Shown here piece after piece: positions 16,601 through 27,830 of a stretch of 64,000 bases of DNA. The notes below the pieces were generated by a model. That model was not told where the DNA came from, did not search any database, and saw nothing but the letters and a program-made list of their open reading frames with translations. The stretch lies in the NCBI GenBank assembly GCA_021651055.1, contig JAJHOH010000001.1:2294001-2358000 (forward strand), in the 5' to 3' direction. How positions within the stretch are numbered: the stretch's first letter is position 1; the number at the start of each line of letters is the position of its first letter. Source of the stretch: Candidatus Manganitrophus morganii (GTDB lineage: Bacteria > Nitrospirota > Nitrospiria > SBBL01 > Manganitrophaceae). A program made the translations under genes and the position numbers.

Positions 16601-17590
16601 ATGGCCATAGAGTCTCGGGTTTCGAGCGCGCTGATCGGCCGCAGCCCCGTCATGAAAGATATCTATCGGGAGTTGATTCGCGTCAGCCAGAGCAAAGCCA
16701 CGGTTCTCCTTCGCGGGGAGAGCGGGACCGGGAAAGAGCTGATCGCGAAGTTGATCCATGAAAATAGCCCCCGCGCCCACAAGCCCTTTATCAAGGTCAA
16801 TTGCGCCGCCCTTTCGGAGACGCTGCTGGAGAGCGAGCTTTTCGGTCACGAAAAGGGGGCCTTCACCGGCGCGATTCAGATGAGAAAGGGCCGGTTCGAG
16901 TTGGCCGACGGGGGGACGATCTTCCTCGATGAAATCGGCGATCTTCCTCTTCCGGTCCAGGTGAAATTGCTGCGGGTCTTGCAGGAGATGGAGTTCGAGC
17001 GGGTCGGCGGGGTTGATACCATCTCGGTCGACGTCCGGACCATTGCCGCCACCCATCGTCAGCTTGAAAACGCGATCCTGGAGGGGAGCTTCCGTCAGGA
17101 CCTCTACTACCGGCTGAATGTCGTGCCGATTCATCTTCCGGCGCTCCGGGAGAGACGGGAAGATATCTCCTTGCTGATCGAGCACTTTCTCGAAAAGTTC
17201 AATAACGAAAACAATAAAAAAGTCCACCTCTCCAATGAAGTGATCCAGCTTCTCATCCACTACGATTGGCCGGGAAACGTCCGCGAGTTGGAGAATTGCA
17301 TCGAGCGGCTGGTGGTTTTGGCGGAAGATGAATCGGTGACATTCAAGACCATCCCCCCGGCGATACAGACTTATTTCAACGACATCAAAACGGTTACCCC
17401 TCCCATCGCCTCCGACAAGCGGGGCTCTTTTACTGAAAAAATGCAGGGAATGGAACAAGAGGCCCTTAAAAAAGCACTGGAACGATCGGGATGGGTCCAG
17501 GCCAAAGCGGCCCGATTGCTTGGAATGACCCCGCGGCAAGTCGCTTATAAGATCAAGAAGTACAAGCTCTTTCCAGAAAACCCATTTTAG
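16601..17590 (+). CDS. PspF-like sigma-54-dependent activator without sensor domain
   Basis: A 329-residue bacterial enhancer-binding protein lacking any receiver, GAF or PAS domain. Its AAA+ domain begins at residue 10, with Walker A GESGTGKE at 39-46, the sigma-54-contacting GAFTGA loop at 86-91, Walker B near TIFLDEIGD, and an arginine-finger region. A Fis-type helix-turn-helix lies at the C-terminus ([19 protein letters not shown]). This length and layout match PspF, whose activity is set by a partner rather than a sensor domain. ATG 16601 follows GGGAGGAAG. The gene lies directly upstream of a sigma-54 promoter for porin-amt-glnK, its probable target. Confidence 0.9.
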
Positions 17591-17710
17591 TGGACAGTTT
17601 TGTCGTGAATGCGACGTAATTGTAGAGATTCAGACCATATTTGTCGGGTCGGCTGTTCAGGCGCTTTCAGAAAATACAGATCTTTCAGGACTTTTCAAGA
17701 TATTTAAATT
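17591..17710 (+). promoter_or_regulatory. Candidate upstream activator sites for the amt-operon sigma-54 promoter
   Basis: This 120-bp stretch between the activator stop and the sigma-54 promoter has no ORF. An inverted repeat GTCG-6-CGAC lies at 17602-17615, about 100 bases upstream of the -24 box, a distance typical of enhancer sites. A GTCGGGTCGGC tract at 17643 is a weaker half-site-like sequence. Which protein binds is unknown. Confidence 0.35.
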
Positions 17711-17726
17711 TGGCATACCAGTTGCT
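17711..17726 (+). promoter_or_regulatory. Sigma-54 (-24/-12) promoter of the porin-amt-glnK operon
   Basis: TGGCATACCAGTTGCT matches the RpoN consensus: TGGCA at 17711-17715, TTGC at 17722-17725, with the invariant GG and GC exactly 12 bases apart. Expected start of transcription is near 17737, immediately before the tandem leader RNA. Nitrogen-controlled amt operons in many bacteria use RpoN promoters. Confidence 0.8.
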
Positions 17727-17744
17727 CTAGTATCCTGGAGAAAC

Positions 17745-17822
17745 CGACTACATCGATGTAATCGTTTAAAGGCTGGCAAAGGCGCCGCCGGATTGATCCT
17801 TCATCCTGCGGCGCCTTTTTTT
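17745..17822 (+). ncRNA. Tandem leader RNA, copy 1 (two hexaloop hairpins plus terminator)
   Basis: Hairpin P1 is 17745-17764: a 7-bp stem with one C-A mismatch closing the hexaloop ATCGAT. After a 6-base linker, hairpin P2 is 17771-17789: GGC-(bulged T)-GGC pairs with GCCGCC around the hexaloop AAAGGC. The 3' half of P2 is also the 5' arm of a strong terminator (arms 17781-17793 and 17803-17815, T7 to 17822), so P2 and the terminator exclude one another. Both loops have A at position 1 and G at position 4, as in ANTAR-protein target RNAs. Confidence 0.72.
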
Positions 17823-17854
17823 GAGTTGTTGTAGAGCAGATAAAAATTAGAGAT

Positions 17855-17931
17855 CGACTACGCTGACGTAATCAATGTAGGCAGGCAAGGGCGCCGCCGG
17901 ATGTTTATCTATCCTGCGGCGCCTTTTTTTT
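17855..17931 (+). ncRNA. Tandem leader RNA, copy 2 (two hexaloop hairpins plus terminator)
   Basis: A second copy starts 110 bases after the first. P1 (17856-17873) has the same stem halves GACTAC/GTAATC but the loop GCTGAC. The linker is again 6 bases. P2 (17880-17898) is GGC-(bulged A)-GGC with GCCGCC around AAGGGC. The terminator arms are 17890-17902 and 17911-17923 followed by T8. The stems and terminator are nearly identical to copy 1 while linkers and loops differ, which points to selection on structure. No separate strong promoter lies between the copies. The porin gene starts 42 bases after the T-tract. Confidence 0.72.
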
Positions 17932-17973: not shown

Positions 17974-19071
17974 ATGAAAAAGACATGGGGGTGGGGTTTT
18001 GTCGTTCTGTTCTTGATCTTGTCGACCGGAAGGTTGTTTGCGGAGGAACCGGCAGAATCGCCATTTCAGATCAGCGGATTCGTCGATACATATTACAGTT
18101 TCAACTTCAACAGACCCGACTCCAATCTCAATACAGTCGGGGCCGGCGCGAGCAACTTCGATTTCTACCACAACGCCTTCAGCGTCAGCCTGGCTGAAAT
18201 CGTCTTATCGAAGGCTGCCGCCCCGGTCGGTTTTCGGATCGATCTGAATTTTGGAACCACCACCGATTTTATTCACTGCGGCGCCTTCTCCTGCCCGGGC
18301 GGCGCGGCTGAAGAGCCGTATAAAAATATTCAGCAGGCCTATGTTACCTGGGCCACGCCGGTCGGCCTGACCCTCGACATGGGTAAATTCGTCACCCATA
18401 TGGGGCTGGAAGTGATCGAGTCGAAGGACAACTGGAACTACACCCGGGGGATTCTCTTCTGCTGTGCGATCCCCTACTACCATACCGGCCTGCGCGCCAA
18501 CTATGCCATCTCCGACATGATCTGGGTGAACGGCTACGTCCTGAACGGCTGGAACAACACCGTCGAGAACAACAACGGTAAAACATTCGGAGCCCAAGTC
18601 GGAATTATTCCGATCAAACCGCTCACCGTTATTCTGAACTGGATCGGACCGGAAAAATCGGCCGGGGGCGGCTTTGAGGACCGCCAAGTCTACGACGTGA
18701 TCGCGATCTTTAACGCGACCGACACCTTGTCTTTCGCAGCCAACTACGATTACGGCACACAAGATCCGATCGGCGGGGGAGACAGCATGACCTGGTCGGG
18801 GATCGCAGTGTATGCCCGAATGGGGTTCGATCCATATGCGGTCGCCGTTCGACTTGAAAATGGGACCGATGACGACGGCGTCATGTACGGAACCGCCGAC
18901 AATACGGTCCAATCGGCCACTCTCACCGGAGAGGTCAAAGTAGCCGACAATCTTCTGATCCGGGCCGAATTCCGGCACGATATGGCCGATGAAGATATCT
19001 TCGCAGACGAGGGTGGAGTGGTGACCGATAGCCAAAGCCGCGCCGTCCTCGGCGTGGTTTATAGTTTCTAA
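17974..19071 (+). CDS. BBP2-family outer-membrane beta-barrel porin
   Basis: A 365-residue protein with a cleavable signal peptide (cleavage near LFA-EE, residue 24). The mature part is rich in alternating aromatic/polar beta-strands, starts with I-S-G-F-V-D-T-Y-Y and ends in V-V-Y-S-F with a terminal Phe, the outer-membrane insertion signal. The pattern fits the putative beta-barrel porin-2 (BBP2/OmpL-like) family. As the first gene of the operon with amt and glnK it probably raises outer-membrane permeability for small nitrogen compounds; that role is inferred from context. AGGGGAGGAAA precedes the ATG. Confidence 0.82.
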   Translation: MKKTWGWGFVVLFLILSTGRLFAEEPAESPFQISGFVDTYYSFNFNRPDSNLNTVGAGASNFDFYHNAFSVSLAEIVLSKAAAPVGFRIDLNFGTTTDFIHCGAFSCPGGAAEEPYKNIQQAYVTWATPVGLTLDMGKFVTHMGLEVIESKDNWNYTRGILFCCAIPYYHTGLRANYAISDMIWVNGYVLNGWNNTVENNNGKTFGAQVGIIPIKPLTVILNWIGPEKSAGGGFEDRQVYDVIAIFNATDTLSFAANYDYGTQDPIGGGDSMTWSGIAVYARMGFDPYAVAVRLENGTDDDGVMYGTADNTVQSATLTGEVKVADNLLIRAEFRHDMADEDIFADEGGVVTDSQSRAVLGVVYSF

Positions 19072-19099: not shown

Positions 19100-20668
19100 A
19101 TGAAGGAATTGTTAAAGAAGATAAGTTGGATGGGAATATTCACTGCGGTGATGCTGTCGCTCTCCCTGCCCGTCTGGGCGGAAGAGGCGGCGGCGCCGGC
19201 GGCAGAGGCCCCTGCGATGACGATGGAGAGCACAGAGAGCGCTCCACCGGCCCCGCCCGCCACAGAAGCGGCTCCACCGGCGGTCGAAGGCCCCTCGGAA
19301 ACCAAGGTGGCGCTCGATACCCTCTGGGTGGTGATTGCCGGGATGCTCGTTTTCTTCATGAACACCGGATTCGCCATGGTGGAATCGGGCTTCTGCAGGA
19401 GCAAGAACACCGTCAACATCCTCTCGAAGAACTTCATCGTCTTCGCCATCTCCACGCTGGCCTTTTGGTTCATCGGCTGGGGGTTGATGTTCGGCGACGG
19501 GAACGGATTCGTCGGGACGAGCGGTCTCTTCTTCCTCGGCGGAGAGGATAACTCGCCGATGACCGGCGACGGCTACAGCGGCGTCTACGGCGCCATCGCG
19601 TGGGCGACGGTCCCCCTGCTCGCCAAGTTCTTCTTCCAGCTTGTCTTTGCCGGAACGGCGGCCACGATTGTCTCGGGGGTGGTGGCCGAGCGGATCAAGT
19701 ACCTCTCTTTCATTGTCTTCTCCTTCGTTCTGGTCGCCTTCATCTACCCAATCATCGGACACTGGATCTGGGGGGGCGGTTGGCTCGCGGGACTGGGGAT
19801 GTGGGATTTCGCCGGGTCGACCGTGGTTCATTCGGTCGGCGGATGGGCGGCCCTGGCCGGGGCGCTGGTTCTCGGCGCCCGAATCGGAAAATATAAGGAT
19901 GGACGGGTGCAGGCGATCCCCGGCCACAACATGGCGCTCGGCACCCTGGGGGCGCTGATCCTCTGGCTCGGCTGGTATGGCTTCAATCCCGGAAGCACGA
20001 TGGCGGCCGCGCCGGGCGATATCTCCCGAATCATCATCACCACCACGATGGCTGCGGCGGCGGGGCTTCTTTTTTCGACCGGAACCGCTTGGACCCTGCT
20101 TGGGAAGCCGGATCTCGGCATGTCGATCAACGGGATGCTCGGCGGTTTGGTCGGGATCACCGCTCCCTGCGCCTTCGTCTCTCCCGGCAGCGCGGTAATC
20201 ATCGGCGCGATTTCCGGGGTGATCGTCGTTCTGGCGGTCATGATGTTCGATCGGCTTCAGATCGACGATCCGGTGGGGGCTCTTTCGGTCCATCTGGTCT
20301 GCGGAATCTTCGGAACAGTGGCGGTCGGCCTCTTCGCGCAAGATGCGATGTTGCCGAACACCACCGGCAACGGCCTCCTCTTCGGCGGCGGGGCGAAGCT
20401 TTTGATCAACCAGTTAATCGGGATTGCCGCCGTCGGGGCCTTTACTTTTGTCGTTTCATTGGTCGTCTGGATGGCCGTCAAAGCAATCATGGGCCTCCGC
20501 GTGAGTGAAACGGAAGAGTTGGAAGGATTGGATCTCGGCGAGCATGGCAATTCGGCCTATCCGGAATTTTCCGTCAGCATGATCTCCAGCAGCGGTGCAA
20601 TGAATATCGGCTATGCCTCATCGAAACCAAAAGCGTCTGAGAAACCGGCCGAAAAAGTAATGCGATAG
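19100..20668 (+). CDS. amt: Ammonium transporter Amt with long N-terminal extension
   Basis: A 522-residue Amt/Rh/MEP-family channel. A signal-peptide-like segment (residues 1-28) is followed by an unusual 45-residue Ala/Pro/Glu-rich stretch, then the eleven-helix core beginning near residue 75. Family motifs include F-x-M-x-x-G-F-A-M-V-E-S-G, D-F-A-G-S-T-V-V-H-S-V-G-G (first pore His) and G-x-N-M-A-L-G-x-L-G. The C-terminal tail (V-S-E-T-E-E-L-E-G-L-D-L-G-E-H-G) is the GlnK-binding region. It imports NH4+/NH3 and is gated by the PII protein encoded 12 bp downstream. The porin gene ends 28 bp upstream. Confidence 0.95.
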   Translation: MKELLKKISWMGIFTAVMLSLSLPVWAEEAAAPAAEAPAMTMESTESAPPAPPATEAAPPAVEGPSETKVALDTLWVVIAGMLVFFMNTGFAMVESGFCRSKNTVNILSKNFIVFAISTLAFWFIGWGLMFGDGNGFVGTSGLFFLGGEDNSPMTGDGYSGVYGAIAWATVPLLAKFFFQLVFAGTAATIVSGVVAERIKYLSFIVFSFVLVAFIYPIIGHWIWGGGWLAGLGMWDFAGSTVVHSVGGWAALAGALVLGARIGKYKDGRVQAIPGHNMALGTLGALILWLGWYGFNPGSTMAAAPGDISRIIITTTMAAAAGLLFSTGTAWTLLGKPDLGMSINGMLGGLVGITAPCAFVSPGSAVIIGAISGVIVVLAVMMFDRLQIDDPVGALSVHLVCGIFGTVAVGLFAQDAMLPNTTGNGLLFGGGAKLLINQLIGIAAVGAFTFVVSLVVWMAVKAIMGLRVSETEELEGLDLGEHGNSAYPEFSVSMISSSGAMNIGYASSKPKASEKPAEKVMR

Positions 20669-21019
<351 letters not shown>

Positions 21020-21213: not shown

Positions 21214-23046
21214 ATGGACCCTGTGACAGAATCATCGAACGACATCGTTGAGATAGAGTCGAAGTGGTATTTCGGCGTCTGTCTCGTCATTGCCGCCCTG
21301 ATCGGAATCTTCACCTGGAAGAACCCTCCCAGTCCGAATCTTCTCGGAATAGAGGTGTTGGCGACCATTCTGATCCTTTTCCTCTTCGGGTCGATCCGTT
21401 ATCGGATCGACAAAAACGCGATCACGTATGGAGCGCTCCCGATCATCTTCGTCACCTTCTTCCCCCTTTGGTGGCCCCAATCCCAACTGCGTGAGGAGAT
21501 GTCTCGGGAAGGGGGGGCCGCCTTGTGGCGTGCGATTCGGGAAAATCTTCTCTCCATCGACGGCCTTGAGAAGTTGATCCATGGCGATACGATGCTTTTT
21601 ATCCTGGGGCTGACTTTTTTCGTCAGCGTCATCTCCCAGACCCGCTTGCTGGAAACGGTGAGCATGAATCTCCTCCGGATCTTCGAGGGGCGCGTTTTGG
21701 CGACGGTTCTAACCATCGCGGGATTGGTCTCCTTTGCCTCCGGCATCTTGGACGGCGTCTCGATGATCGGCCTGACGATCCGCGTCTTGGTGATTATCCT
21801 GGTGATGGCGCGGATTCGGTACGAAGGGATCGAATTTATCATCATGGTCTCGGTGATCCTCACGACTGTCTGCGGAATGTGGCTCGCTTACGGAGAGCCC
21901 CCGAACCTGATCATGAAGTCCAATCTCAGCCTCCCCGATACTTTTTTTCTGAAATATGCGTTGCCGATGGCGGTCGTTACCTTCCTCATCGTCTCCCATT
22001 TTATTTCCCGCTGGTTGAAGGGGGCGATGATCCCCCTGGATGAGCTCGACGTTCTGGAGAAGAATATCGCCGATGTCCGGTTCCATCAAGCCGCGCGGAA
22101 AGGAGAGGTCAAAGAGATCGAGGATATGTTCAAGGAATACGCCGAACGCTTTGGAGATAAAACGGCGGCGGTGGAAGCCCTCTACCATGAGGGACATCAT
22201 CCGATCTCGGCCATGATCCGGGCCCAGGTCGATGAAGAGACCGTGAATGCGTTCATCCGGGATTTTTTGGGAGAAGCGTTTGTCGCGCCGGTGAAGTCCT
22301 ATTATCATCATCGGAAACAAAGGGGGAGTCCGGGAGAGCGGGAGTTGGAGCTGCGGGAGGCGGGGGTGATCGAACGCTTGCTGGAGGACACCCGTGTTCA
22401 ACGGAACGCCGCGCAGAGATGGGGCAAGCTCGCTTTTATTCCGTTCCTCGGCTTATTGTTCTGGCACGCCCGGAATCACGATGTTCCCCTCTTTATCTCG
22501 TCGATCGCCGCCTTTTCTTTCGCGCTGTTGGGGATTTTGGCCCACACGAAGATGAGAAAACTTGCAATCCGGGAAGCGACCCACGAATACAAGGAGTACC
22601 TTTTTCTCTTTCCTCTTTTTCTTTCGATTACGATGCTCACGGCGGTCGGATTTTTTGATCAGTTGAAGGCGGCGATCGAACGGGGGGTGGACCTTCTCGG
22701 CCCCGCCCATGTGGCGGTCATCCAGTTCCTCGGATCGGGGCTTCTCTCGGCGGTGCTGGACAACAACGTCGTCGCCGATTTCGCCTCCCGGGCCATTCAG
22801 GGAATGCCGGATATGTTCCTCTTCGCCGCGGCCCAAATCGCCGGATATGCGGCGGGAGGCTCGCTCACCCACATCGGCTCGGCCCAGTCGGTGGTCGCCT
22901 TCGCCTACATCCTCCGGTATGTCGATCCCTCCTTCACCCCGTTGGGCTGGATCAAGGCGATGTGGCGGCTGGTCGTCATCATCTCGATTGCCCTGATCGT
23001 CGTTCTCTATATCAAAGCGTTTCTTGTCGGTTCTGTTCCGGGATAG
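21214..23046 (+). CDS. Putative Na+/H+ antiporter (ion-transporter superfamily)
   Basis: A 610-residue membrane protein with about twelve helices in two halves separated by a charged cytoplasmic insert (about residues 280-400, with an E-E-x-x-V-N-A-F-I segment). The motifs A-Y-G-E-P-P-N-L-I-M-K-S-N in the first half and S-A-V-L-D-N-N-V-V-A-D in the second are the paired discontinuous-helix motifs of the ArsB/NhaD/CitM ion-transporter superfamily. I favour the predicted Na+/H+ antiporter family of that clan; the ion is not certain. It has its own promoter and lies between two ammonium operons. Confidence 0.72.
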   Translation: MDPVTESSNDIVEIESKWYFGVCLVIAALIGIFTWKNPPSPNLLGIEVLATILILFLFGSIRYRIDKNAITYGALPIIFVTFFPLWWPQSQLREEMSREGGAALWRAIRENLLSIDGLEKLIHGDTMLFILGLTFFVSVISQTRLLETVSMNLLRIFEGRVLATVLTIAGLVSFASGILDGVSMIGLTIRVLVIILVMARIRYEGIEFIIMVSVILTTVCGMWLAYGEPPNLIMKSNLSLPDTFFLKYALPMAVVTFLIVSHFISRWLKGAMIPLDELDVLEKNIADVRFHQAARKGEVKEIEDMFKEYAERFGDKTAAVEALYHEGHHPISAMIRAQVDEETVNAFIRDFLGEAFVAPVKSYYHHRKQRGSPGERELELREAGVIERLLEDTRVQRNAAQRWGKLAFIPFLGLLFWHARNHDVPLFISSIAAFSFALLGILAHTKMRKLAIREATHEYKEYLFLFPLFLSITMLTAVGFFDQLKAAIERGVDLLGPAHVAVIQFLGSGLLSAVLDNNVVADFASRAIQGMPDMFLFAAAQIAGYAAGGSLTHIGSAQSVVAFAYILRYVDPSFTPLGWIKAMWRLVVIISIALIVVLYIKAFLVGSVPG

Positions 23047-23115: not shown

Positions 23116-25719
23116 ATGCACCCTCAGGCCAATATTCTTGCTGATCTTCGCCTCCTCTTTGGGGCCAGGCAGAAGGAGATCCGTGCCTTTCACGATCAGG
23201 GCGGAACCGGTCTTCGCGTTGTCGAGGCCCTCTCGGATCTGGCCGACCATCTCCTCCTGCGGGGATTTCAATCGATCAACCCGACGCTGATCCAGGAGTG
23301 GGGGGGTGTGATGGTCGCCATCGGCGGGTACGGCCGCCGGGAGCTCTCGCCGGCCTCGGACATCGACCTGATGTTCCTCTTCCCCGAAGGACGCGCGAGG
23401 CAGGCCGAAAGACTCGCCTCGGAGCTGCTTCCGTTTTTCTGGGACCTCGGCTACAAAGTCGGCCACAGTGTGCGCAGCGTGGAAGAGTGCATCGCCGCCG
23501 CAAAACAGGACACCCTGATCGCCACCTCCCTTCTTGAATCGCGGCTCCTCACAGGCGACCGAGGCCTGTTCCAGCAGTTTCACGAAGCATTCTTCTCCAA
23601 GGTGGTCGGAAAAAATCTAAAAGATTTTTTGGTCCATCTCGACAACGGAAGAGCGGCGGGGCGAAAGGAGTTCGGCGCCACCCCCTATCTTCTGGAGCCG
23701 AACCTCAAGCAGAGCCCCGGCGGGCTTCGCGACATTCATCACCTTCGCTGGGTCGCGCTGGCCCGCTATCGGACCAATTCTCTCGCGCAGCTTTTTCAGT
23801 GGGGGCTTCTCTCCAACGCGGAATATTCAAGCCTGACCACCGCCCTCGATTTTCTCTGGAAAATTCGGAACCAGCTTCACTTCAAGGCGGGAAGGGCCTC
23901 CGACCATCTGACGATGGAGCTGCAGGAAGAGCTCGCCCCCTTCTTTCATTTCGAGAACCGGCGCGAGCTGATGCGCCAGTATTACATCCTGACCGGTTGG
24001 GTCATTGAGATTTCGGATCGGTTTATCCGAGACGCCTTTCCGGTCAGCCGATGGCAGAAGTGGCAACGCGCATGGCAGACCCGTCAGGCGGCCCCCGGTT
24101 TTCAACTCTCCGCCGGGGAGATTGTTCCGCAGACGACCAATCTTCATCAATTCTTCGGGAACGATGAAAATCTCCTTCGGATTTTTCTCCTTGTGAAAGA
24201 ACATGGCGCCCGCATCCCCGGCCCGGTCCTCGAAGTCCTTCACCAGGTCGCCGATCAGGAGCGGGACCGGCCGATTTCACCGGAGGCGGCCGTCCTCTTT
24301 CGGGAAATCCTCTCGAAGCCGGGACGGATCGCCGACACCCTGCGCGTGATGCACCGGACCCATGTCCTCTGGCGGATCATCCCGGAGTTCGCGCGCGTTC
24401 ATCGGCTGGTTCAGGAGAGCCGGTCCCATTTTTTCACCGTGGACGAGCATAGCTTCCGCGCCGTGGAAGAGGGGGAGCGCTTGGCCGCCGAGGGGGGGGC
24501 GATCGGAAAGATCTACGCCGGAATCCAAAGAAAAGATCTCCTCCACCTGGCGCTTCTCCTGCACGATGTCGGGAAAGGACGCGATGAAGACCACAGCGCG
24601 GTCGGAGCGATTCTTGCCGAAGCGGCCGGAATTCAGCTGGGATATACCGATGAGGAGCGTGCTCTTTTGGTTTTTCTCGTCCGGCGCCATCTGATTCTCT
24701 CCGAGGTGGCGCTCTACCGCGACTTTTCAAACGAGCCGGTCCTCCTTCAATTCGCCAGCGAGGTCGCCCGGCCGGAAACGCTTAAAAAACTGTTCGTCTT
24801 AACCTGCGCCGATATCCGCGCGGTCGGCCCCGGCACCTGGACGAGTTGGAAGGGGGAACTTCTGCTCAAACTCTATGGGGAAGCGCTTTCGATCTTGGCG
24901 GGGGAAGAGGCCGATCCGGAGGAGCGGAAGGTGGAGATGATCGCCGCGCGCCTTCGCCAGGAAGCGAAAGGGAAGTACCCGGAGGTGTGGCTGGAAGAGA
25001 CCCTTCAAGGATTGATACCGCGCTACCTCTTGGCCACCCCTTTTGAGAAAATGCTCGCCGATCTGTCGGCCCTCTTCCACCTCTTGATCGATCCGATCCA
25101 TGTCGCGGCGCGCTACCTCCCCGATTCCGGGATGACCGAATATACCCTCTACACCTATGATCAGATCACACCCGGCCTCTTCTCAAAGATGACCGGCGTG
25201 CTCGCCGCCAAGGGGCTTCAGATCATGGGGGCGCAGGTCTTCACCCAATCGAACGGCATGGTCGTCGATACGTTTCGGGTTATCGATCCCGATTACGCCG
25301 GACCGGTCCCGCCCGAACGGATCGAGAAGATCTCGCAGGAAGTCCGGAGCGTTTTGATCGGCAAGGAAACGATTGAAGCCCTCTTCACGCGGGGGCAACG
25401 GTTTGGGTCTCACAAGGAACTCCCTCCGACGGTCGCCGTCCGGGTGGAGCTCGACAACGACAGCTCCCATCACTTCACGATCATCGATATCTTTGCCCCC
25501 GATCGGCGGGGACTCCTTTATGTGATTGCGAAAACGATCTTCGATCTCGGTCTCTCGGTCCACTCGGCCAAAATTGCGACGCGGCTCGACCAGATCGTCG
25601 ACGTTTTCTACGTGCAAGGTCCCGAGGGGAAGAAGATCACCGATTCGGAAATGATCCGGAAGGTGAAGGAGCGGCTCACAAACGAGATTCAGCAAGGTTC
25701 GACCGGCAAAGGAAAGTAG
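23116..25719 (+). CDS. glnD: Bifunctional PII uridylyltransferase/uridylyl-removing enzyme GlnD
   Basis: An 867-residue enzyme with the standard GlnD layout. The nucleotidyltransferase domain carries G-G-Y-G-R-R-E-L-x-P-x-S-D-I-D-L at about 70-86. A linked GlnE-like helical domain, an HD phosphohydrolase domain (H-S-x-x-A-V, and L-L-H-D-V-G-K-G near 480) and two C-terminal ACT domains (about 695-775 and 790-860) that sense glutamine follow. It uridylylates PII Tyr51 when glutamine is low and removes UMP when it is high. GGAGCAGG precedes ATG 23116. The downstream amt starts 24 bp after its stop, suggesting a glnD-amt-glnK operon. Confidence 0.97.
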   Translation: MHPQANILADLRLLFGARQKEIRAFHDQGGTGLRVVEALSDLADHLLLRGFQSINPTLIQEWGGVMVAIGGYGRRELSPASDIDLMFLFPEGRARQAERLASELLPFFWDLGYKVGHSVRSVEECIAAAKQDTLIATSLLESRLLTGDRGLFQQFHEAFFSKVVGKNLKDFLVHLDNGRAAGRKEFGATPYLLEPNLKQSPGGLRDIHHLRWVALARYRTNSLAQLFQWGLLSNAEYSSLTTALDFLWKIRNQLHFKAGRASDHLTMELQEELAPFFHFENRRELMRQYYILTGWVIEISDRFIRDAFPVSRWQKWQRAWQTRQAAPGFQLSAGEIVPQTTNLHQFFGNDENLLRIFLLVKEHGARIPGPVLEVLHQVADQERDRPISPEAAVLFREILSKPGRIADTLRVMHRTHVLWRIIPEFARVHRLVQESRSHFFTVDEHSFRAVEEGERLAAEGGAIGKIYAGIQRKDLLHLALLLHDVGKGRDEDHSAVGAILAEAAGIQLGYTDEERALLVFLVRRHLILSEVALYRDFSNEPVLLQFASEVARPETLKKLFVLTCADIRAVGPGTWTSWKGELLLKLYGEALSILAGEEADPEERKVEMIAARLRQEAKGKYPEVWLEETLQGLIPRYLLATPFEKMLADLSALFHLLIDPIHVAARYLPDSGMTEYTLYTYDQITPGLFSKMTGVLAAKGLQIMGAQVFTQSNGMVVDTFRVIDPDYAGPVPPERIEKISQEVRSVLIGKETIEALFTRGQRFGSHKELPPTVAVRVELDNDSSHHFTIIDIFAPDRRGLLYVIAKTIFDLGLSVHSAKIATRLDQIVDVFYVQGPEGKKITDSEMIRKVKERLTNEIQQGSTGKGK

Positions 25720-25743: not shown

Positions 25744-27087
25744 ATGGCAACGAATCGACGCATGCAGGTCCATCTGAAATGGCTGCTGGTTTTGTTGTTT
25801 TTCACGGCATCGATCGGGTTTAATCTTTCAACCGCTTTCGCTCAGGACGCTCCTCCTCCGACGATCGATACCGGCGACACCGCCTGGATGCTCGCTTCCG
25901 CGGCGCTGGTTCTTCTGATGACCCCCGGCCTGGCGCTTTTCTACGGCGGGATGGTTCGAACGAAAAATTCGCTCGGCACCATCATGCAAAGCATGATTAT
26001 GATCGCGTTGATCACCGTCCAGTGGGTCCTTTTCGGATATACCCTCGCCTTCGGTCCGGACCAGGGGGGACTTATCGGAAGCTTGGCCTGGCTGGGATTA
26101 AATGGGGTGGGACTCGATCCCAATCCCGACTACGCGGGGACGATTCCTCATCAGGTTTTTATGATTTATCAAGGAATGTTCGCCATCATCACGCCGGCGC
26201 TGATTACCGGGGCGTTTGCCGAGCGGATGAAATTCTCCACCTTCTTGGTTTTTTCGCTTCTCTGGGCGACGCTGGTCTACGATCCTTTGGCGCATTGGGT
26301 CTGGGGGGTCGGCGGGTGGATGCGCAATCTCGGCGCTCTGGACTTTGCGGGGGGAACGGTGGTGCACATCAGCTCCGGGGTCTCCGCGCTGGCGGCGGCC
26401 CTCTATATGGGAAAACGGCACGGCTACGGAAAAGAGCCGATGCCGCCGCACAACCTCCCGATGACGGTGCTGGGGGCGGGGATTCTCTGGTTCGGCTGGT
26501 TCGGGTTTAACGGCGGCAGCGCGGTCGCCTCCGGCGCGCTCGCCGGGAGCGCCTTTGTCGTGACCCATATCGCGGCCGCCTCCGCGACCCTCACCTGGAT
26601 GTTTGTGGAGTGGGCGCACCGAGGAAAGCCGACGGTGCTCGGGGCCGTCAGCGGCGCGGTGGCCGGTCTGGTCGCCATCACGCCGGCCTCCGGATTCGTC
26701 GGCCCGATCTCCGCCCTTCTCATCGGGATCGGCGGCGGGGCGGTCTGTTATTTCGGCGCCGTGATTTTGAAGAACAAGCTCGGCTATGACGATTCCCTCG
26801 ACGCCTTCGGTGTGCACGGCCTGGGCGGAACCTTCGGGGCGTTGGCGACCGGTCTCTTCGCGTCCAAAGCGGTGAACGCAGCGGGGAATGATGGGGCCTT
26901 CTTCGGGAATCCGAAACTGCTGGTCATCCAAGCCATCACCGTGGTGGCCACCTGGGTCTTTGCTTTTGTGATGACGATGATTCTGCTGAAAATCCTCGAC
27001 GCGACGATGGGGCTGCGTGTCTCCAAAGAAAAGGAGATCACCGGACTCGATATGTCGGAGCATGGAGAAACCGGCTACAATCTTTGA
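25744..27087 (+). CDS. amt: Ammonium transporter Amt (copy 2)
   Basis: A 447-residue Amt-family channel with a cleavable signal-like N-terminus (AFA-QD near residue 34) and eleven helices. Motifs are L-F-Y-G-G-M-V-R-T-K-N, D-F-A-G-G-T-V-V-H-I-S-S-G (pore His), L-x-W-F-G-W-F-G-F-N-G-G-S and the second pore His in F-G-V-H-G-L-G-G. The tail ends D-M-S-E-H-G-E, typical of AmtB proteins that bind GlnK. It lacks the Pro/Ala/Glu-rich extension of copy 1. It is preceded by GGGGGAACA and followed by its own glnK 48 bp later. Confidence 0.96.
   Translation: MATNRRMQVHLKWLLVLLFFTASIGFNLSTAFAQDAPPPTIDTGDTAWMLASAALVLLMTPGLALFYGGMVRTKNSLGTIMQSMIMIALITVQWVLFGYTLAFGPDQGGLIGSLAWLGLNGVGLDPNPDYAGTIPHQVFMIYQGMFAIITPALITGAFAERMKFSTFLVFSLLWATLVYDPLAHWVWGVGGWMRNLGALDFAGGTVVHISSGVSALAAALYMGKRHGYGKEPMPPHNLPMTVLGAGILWFGWFGFNGGSAVASGALAGSAFVVTHIAAASATLTWMFVEWAHRGKPTVLGAVSGAVAGLVAITPASGFVGPISALLIGIGGGAVCYFGAVILKNKLGYDDSLDAFGVHGLGGTFGALATGLFASKAVNAAGNDGAFFGNPKLLVIQAITVVATWVFAFVMTMILLKILDATMGLRVSKEKEITGLDMSEHGETGYNL

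Positions 27088-27117: not shown

Positions 27118-27830
<713 letters not shown>

Follow-up and report, generated by a model that had tools for sequence, protein, structure and literature searches.

Target RNAs of ANTAR proteins have been described in Firmicutes, Proteobacteria and Actinobacteria, and stand in front of genes for PII proteins, ammonium transporters, urea transporters and nitrite reductases (Ramesh et al., PMC3369931). The locus that we describe here, from Candidatus Manganitrophus, shares much with the attenuators of the EutV/eut, NasR/nasF and AmiR/amiE systems (PMC3369931, PMC8934654): two short hairpins, P1 and P2, with stems of at least 3 bp and hexaloops that carry G at position 4 (G4), invariant P1 closing pairs, a short linker (5-6 nt in Manganitrophus; 5-12 nt between the hairpins at the E. 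faecalis eut genes, PMC3369931), a P2 that overlaps an intrinsic terminator, an ANTAR gene in the genome, and nitrogen genes that include those for PII and an ammonium transporter. It differs from them in belonging to Nitrospirota, in having either A or G at loop position 1, in its sigma-54 promoter, in a one-component GAF-GAF-ANTAR regulator encoded far from the operon, and in the possession of two complete units in a fixed tandem of 108-112 bp. The regulon of Desulfotomaculum acetoxidans, with 13 sites in six transcription units (PMC3369931), likewise has several such sites within single transcription units of nitrogen genes, and doubling therefore has a precedent.

The type of switch is already known as ANTAR attenuation of nitrogen genes (PMC3369931), and is now extended to Nitrospirota; in the literature searched we found no earlier account of an ANTAR nitrogen regulon in this phylum. 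The present analysis contributes the phylum itself, a coherent predicted class-wide nitrogen regulon, a tandem unit with near-constant spacing and a relaxed loop rule. A preliminary description of the locus had proposed that ammonium uptake is governed by a doubled antitermination switch of the ANTAR type, and this proposal is strongly supported by the anatomy of the leader, by its conservation, by the link between the motif and ANTAR genes, and by the genes that it precedes.

Architecture of the twin leader and its operon

The window, by which we mean the whole stretch of 64,000 nt that was analysed, comes from Candidatus Manganitrophus morganii (JAJHOH010000001.1, positions 2,294,001-2,358,000 of the forward strand; GCA_021651055.1), a manganese-oxidising bacterium of the Nitrospirota in the genus Candidatus Manganitrophus. 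On its plus strand, a gene for a sigma-54 enhancer-binding protein with AAA+ and Fis-type HTH domains (16601..17590; Pfam PF00158, PF02954) precedes the leader, and beyond the leader lie genes for an outer-membrane porin of the BBP2 family (17974..19071; PF07642, E 5.6e-80), the ammonium transporter Amt (19100..20668; PF00909, E 3e-122), the PII signalling protein GlnK (20681..21019; PF00543, E 1e-32), a CitMHS-family transporter (21214..23046; PF03600), the PII uridylyltransferase GlnD (23116..25719; PF08335), a second Amt (25744..27087; PF00909) and a second PII-like protein (GlnK; 27136..27474) that closely resembles the first in sequence. Judging by strand and spacing, we infer that porin-amt-glnK-transporter-glnD-amt-glnK form a single operon. 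A second copy of the porin gene, 89% identical, occurs in one genome (L008, G005:C1:100058-101134), where it has neither a sigma-54 promoter nor a leader.

The leader consists of two plus-strand units spaced by exactly 110 bp. In copy 1, P1 (17745-17764, CGACTAC-ATCGAT-GTAATCG) and the antiterminator P2 (17771-17789, GGC-T-GGC-AAAGGC-GCC-GCC) both have hexaloops with A at position 1 and G at position 4 (A1/G4), and an intrinsic terminator overlaps P2 (17778-17822), its stem spanning 17778-17818 and its U-tract reaching 17822. Copy 2 follows the same order, with P1 (17855-17874, CGACTAC-GCTGAC-GTAATCA, loop G1/G4), the antiterminator P2 (17880-17898, GGC-A-GGC-AAGGGC-GCC-GCC, loop A1/G4) and an intrinsic terminator overlapping P2 (17887-17931; stem 17887-17926, U-tract to 17931). 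The preliminary description had recognised this arrangement of P1, linker, P2 and terminator in two copies 110 bp apart, with the 3′ arm of P2 serving as the 5′ arm of the terminator, and the sequence confirms it; the linker is TTTAAA (6 nt) in copy 1 and ATGTA (5 nt) in copy 2. Its mutually exclusive terminators are also borne out by predicted folding: RNA that ends before the terminator folds into P1 and P2, whereas in the whole RNA the terminator forms at the expense of P2, and only one of the two states can thus exist at a time.

Two details of these folds are points against the ANTAR account: P1 of either copy contains a C.A mismatch in its lower stem, and in full-length copy 2 the P1 region is, in this genome, taken into a competing hairpin. 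Fold z-scores of the units including their terminators are -3.3 and -3.8; without terminators the dual hairpins have no exceptional stability (z -0.9 and -0.2). As a measure of chance, a descriptor comprising two hexaloops with A or G at position 1 and G4, together with an overlapping terminator, matched only the two leader copies on the plus strand of the window, and had no match on the minus strand or in 30 block-shuffled windows. The terminator scan missed both leader terminators owing to its limits on stem and loop.

The preliminary description was right about leader anatomy but overlooked the predicted sigma-54 promoter just upstream, TGGCATACCAGTTGCT (17711-17726, plus strand), which is the sole match in the window against 0.04 expected. 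In each of the six genus genomes this promoter lies 36-41 nt 5′ of the P1 core. From its location a start near 17737 is expected, and the predicted transcript would thus begin almost at P1. The same location bears on another explanation, in which the two terminators are plain and constitutive and shield the operon from the gene 5′ of it, with P1 and P2 incidental. Terminators placed after the upstream gene could indeed limit its read-through; however, the conserved promoter lies 5′ of both, and with a plain terminator the operon would be shut off. The hairpins P1 and P2, moreover, show conservation and covariation and turn up again at other operons. We consider this explanation exceedingly improbable.

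The enhancer-binding protein is likely to start at 16601, where its N-terminus (MAIESR or MATESR) abuts the AAA+ domain in all six genus genomes, and in none of the six does this leader-adjacent protein have a sensor domain. A similar enhancer-binding protein of family f10 (L181:6743-8305) carries a GAF domain. Two dyads read from the sequence 5′ of the sigma-54 promoter, GACAGTTTTGTC and GACGTAATTGTA (17593..17624, no strand assigned), are candidate upstream activator sites, putatively for the enhancer-binding protein; related dyads are kept in the six genus genomes. At a separate locus (L170, G100:C131), an ANTAR-type unit with a terminator precedes the gene of a sigma-54 enhancer-binding protein, and ANTAR control may there extend to the activator itself. 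In Geobacter, the ANTAR regulator of the GnfL/GnfR system reportedly acts in concert with sigma-54 promoters at nitrogen genes; the annotation of GnfR is that of a response regulator, in contrast to the one-component GAF-GAF-ANTAR protein of Manganitrophus. The gene names GnfL and GnfR appear in PMC7962754.

Conservation, loop letters and covariation

The tandem leader is present with both copies in six of six genus genomes, at a unit spacing of 108-112 bp, and strong U-tracted terminators overlapping P2 are conserved in both copies across the genus. Each copy has P1 loops of its own, ATCGAT or ACCGAT in copy 1 and GCTGAC or GATGAC in copy 2, and the P2 letters are likewise kept. Since both copies persist, each with its own loop letters, the duplication predates the genus and both copies have been maintained. 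A tandem is found again in a genome of another family (G034), ahead of a porin gene and with 115 nt spacing.

G4 is present in all four loops of the leader, is kept in the genus, and recurs across the order in model matches obtained independently of the fixed pattern. A1 is found in both copy 1 loops and in P2 of copy 2; P1 of copy 2 has G1, as it does in all six genus genomes, and this departure from the canonical A1 counts against the ANTAR account, although G1 is frequent among relatives. Under an A1/G4 definition copy 1 is, by its letters, canonical and copy 2 a variant. Across the order, however, the loops of both P1 and P2 have A or G as their first letter and G as their fourth, and the second letter in P2 is always A. 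The structure of the EutV complex shows G4 contacted and A1 without contact, and in Actinobacteria the conservation of A1/G4 is merely above 50%. Because position 1 in the clade is A or G, and EutV contacts G4 rather than A1, P1 of copy 2 fits the clade's own rule, and we dropped the view of it as a rule-breaker, A or G at this position being common in the clade. The A1/G4 rule of the preliminary description is thus kept for G4, in all four loops, and relaxed at position 1 to A or G. Pairing across the P1 loop, of position 1 with position 6, was also considered as a rule and rejected; it is true in the genus and fails in some relatives.

Relatives were searched with a covariance model built from the genus copies (R1) and with successive models derived from it (R2 and R3). 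R1 on its own gave mostly chance matches outside the genus. Outside the order, reversed controls matched the fixed pattern about as often as real sequences did, so the pattern was used only to seed better models. R2 and R3 recover the unit in other families of the order, ahead of porins (L112, L113, L131, L132), PII or molybdopterin-PII genes (L121, L130, L133, L172) and a receiver-domain protein (L114), with further units at L111 and L122; units elsewhere in the order likewise have U-tracted terminators overlapping P2. The R3 element precedes porin, PII, nitrite-reductase, urease and formamidase-like genes. A covariance-model search was the check proposed in the preliminary description, and it places the element ahead of nitrogen genes in further families. 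Outside the phylum, genomes that encode a GAF-GAF-ANTAR protein of 55-62% identity yielded weak matches, mostly in coding sequence and without a terminator.

An alignment of 20 members (18 distinct sequences) has 90.4% of cells paired and 18 double-change cells, pair counts that lean towards the model to which the alignment was fitted (slid controls, 19-54% paired). Its covariation score is 0.263 against 0.103 in shuffles, none of 500 shuffles scoring as high. In P1, five of seven pairs covary and the two loop-closing pairs (A-U and C-G) are invariant in the 18 distinct sequences; in P2 all three pairs are invariant. Homologous leaders thus covary, most clearly in P1. This supports the structural selection that the preliminary description had read into the constancy of the stems, although it is covariation in other genomes that does so, and constancy between two copies alone is no evidence. 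In EutV targets the lower P1 pairs are structural and the top P1 pairs sequence-specific, a pattern with which the invariant top and covarying lower pairs of this alignment agree.

The invariant top pairs of P1 and P2 might also be expected of a tandem riboswitch, which would sense a small nitrogen metabolite directly, with no protein, through the same terminator/antiterminator logic. Tandem terminator leaders ahead of transport genes are typical of riboswitches, and the setting of this leader is of that kind. Against this, neither the leader nor 13 related loci score above the gathering threshold of any Rfam family, nor do they match one at relaxed thresholds; a ligand pocket is not evident in two short hairpins with loops of 6 nt; the loop letters vary save for A or G at position 1 and G4, which is the ANTAR pattern; and the matches track ANTAR genes, as described below. 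We regard a riboswitch as very unlikely. The narK RNA of Rfam was rejected as a candidate, reaching 21.7 bits where 43.2 are needed and being absent from relatives.

The ANTAR protein and its predicted nitrogen regulon

An ANTAR protein, which the preliminary reading presupposes, is encoded in the genome: a single ANTAR domain was found (E 3.9e-22), within a 423-aa GAF-GAF-ANTAR protein whose named relatives at 90-98% identity are Candidatus Manganitrophus or Manganitrophaceae records. Together with the covariation described above, two of the checks named in the preliminary description have thus come out in its favour. The domain aligns with those of EutV, Rv1626 and NasR and retains the equivalents of EutV R142, K143, E160, M172 and N173, through which EutV contacts RNA in its complex. 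The replacement of Y164 by Phe and R168 by Gln counts against the ANTAR account; Phe at the former position is common among other ANTAR domains, and Gln at the latter is shared with Rv1626. For the first GAF domain the top solved match is PtsP, annotated as a phosphoenolpyruvate-protein phosphotransferase, which we take to be a member of the nitrogen phosphotransferase system. Our guess would be that the GAF ligand is a nitrogen metabolite.

Elsewhere in this genome, for which the regulon list is possibly incomplete, R3 matches at 1950385-1950426 on the minus strand (E 3e-7), ahead of a second porin gene followed by ureD, ABC permease genes and urease subunits; the P2 loop of this element has 5 nt. 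A weak match at 2065124-2065162 on the plus strand (E 0.05) lies ahead of genes for a molybdopterin-PII fusion and a nitrite-reductase-type protein, and in two sister genomes a unit precedes a formamidase-like gene (L145, L146), so named by sequence resemblance alone. All these contexts, as annotated, fit nitrogen acquisition. At the fusion locus (L152, G000:C1:2065124-2065162) and its genus relatives (L139, L150, L153), a sigma-54-like promoter, P2 and the terminator are kept and P1 is poor; this leader is perhaps a single-hexaloop attenuator. The unusual fusion of an oxidoreductase molybdopterin-binding domain with PII heads nitrite-reductase operons in the order (L174:1707-2807, L034:1584-2687).

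An ANTAR protein is found in 86 of the 117 genomes of the class. At E<1e-3, R3 matched 30 of these 86 genomes and one of the 31 ANTAR-negative genomes (Fisher p 3e-4, a value that is indicative only, since the compared genomes are related and not independent). The lone match in an ANTAR-less genome (G031) lies inside a coding gene and was rejected. Throughout the 117 genomes, every strong match seen outside coding sequence came from a genome with an ANTAR gene, coding overlap having been checked for part of the R3 matches. In 14 of the 16 matched genomes left out of R3 building, the distance between match and ANTAR gene is 3.0-17.7 kb, and outside the order most strong matches lie 3-18 kb from the ANTAR gene. 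One genome (G046) has a cluster of ANTAR, NAD-synthetase-like, outer-membrane protein, amt, PII, glnD, glnA and nitrite reductase genes, an order that, as annotated, is close to that of the window.

Terminator-less relatives and the proposed mechanism

Family f10 (L092-L098, L171, L173) has a strongly conserved dual hairpin, GGATACGAYGYCGTATCC ... CGGCAAYGAAGCC, together with a sigma-54 promoter, at operons that start with a homologous BBP2 porin gene or, in two genomes, with a gene for another outer-membrane protein; in three f10 genomes the ANTAR gene is about 10-13 kb from the leader. Nitrospira-type genomes of the class (L158-L169) have dual hexaloops ahead of an outer-membrane protein gene adjoining amt, 3-18 kb from the ANTAR gene. 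No U-tracted terminator was found in the f10 leaders and no terminator in the Nitrospira-type leaders, and both results are points against an ANTAR attenuation account. It is possible that such leaders have another output or another mode of termination.

These relatives lend some weight to the idea that the ANTAR protein binds the dual hexaloops and that its main output in the genus is something other than antitermination, such as RNA stabilisation or sequestration of the protein; single-hexaloop binding and sequestration by RNA have been discussed (PMC8934654). Both genus copies nevertheless retain strong U-tracted terminators overlapping P2, as do the units in the other families of the order, and we give this idea only a slim chance of being correct for Manganitrophus.

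Our preferred reading, which we hold with high confidence, is that a sigma-54-driven leader with two serial ANTAR attenuators, opened by the protein, gates the ammonium-uptake/PII operon. In this model the leader RNA would carry both attenuators in series ahead of the operon, and the GAF domains of the single ANTAR protein would report a nitrogen-related signal. The signalled protein would bind the nascent P1 and P2 hexaloops of each copy; with P2 held, and its 3′ arm being the 5′ arm of the terminator, RNA polymerase would pass, and without active ANTAR protein the terminator would form. Transcription of porin-amt-glnK would occur only once both sites had been passed. Protein-RNA binding, antitermination, the signal and its direction, and the two-gate effect are the steps that we infer here. 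It is plausible that a double gate sharpens the off state, as the preliminary description suggested, an effect that would be arithmetical if the sites are independent.

A wider reading can be offered only tentatively, and we lean somewhat against it: one GAF-GAF-ANTAR protein may gate nitrogen acquisition after initiation across the Manganitrophus/Nitrospira-type class, with a non-attenuation output on the terminator-less hexaloops of two other lineages. Within this reading, nitrogen sensing in Manganitrophus would reside mainly in the doubled RNA gate, because the adjacent sigma-54 activator has no sensor domain.

The fixed tandem, found in one genus and in another family, is a natural test of two serial antitermination gates, and the terminator-less relatives near ANTAR genes could reveal ANTAR outputs besides attenuation. 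For the organisms themselves, the analysis gives a concrete predicted regulon that covers the use of ammonium, urea and nitrite and probably also of formamide; nitrogen control in these lithoautotrophs has received little study.
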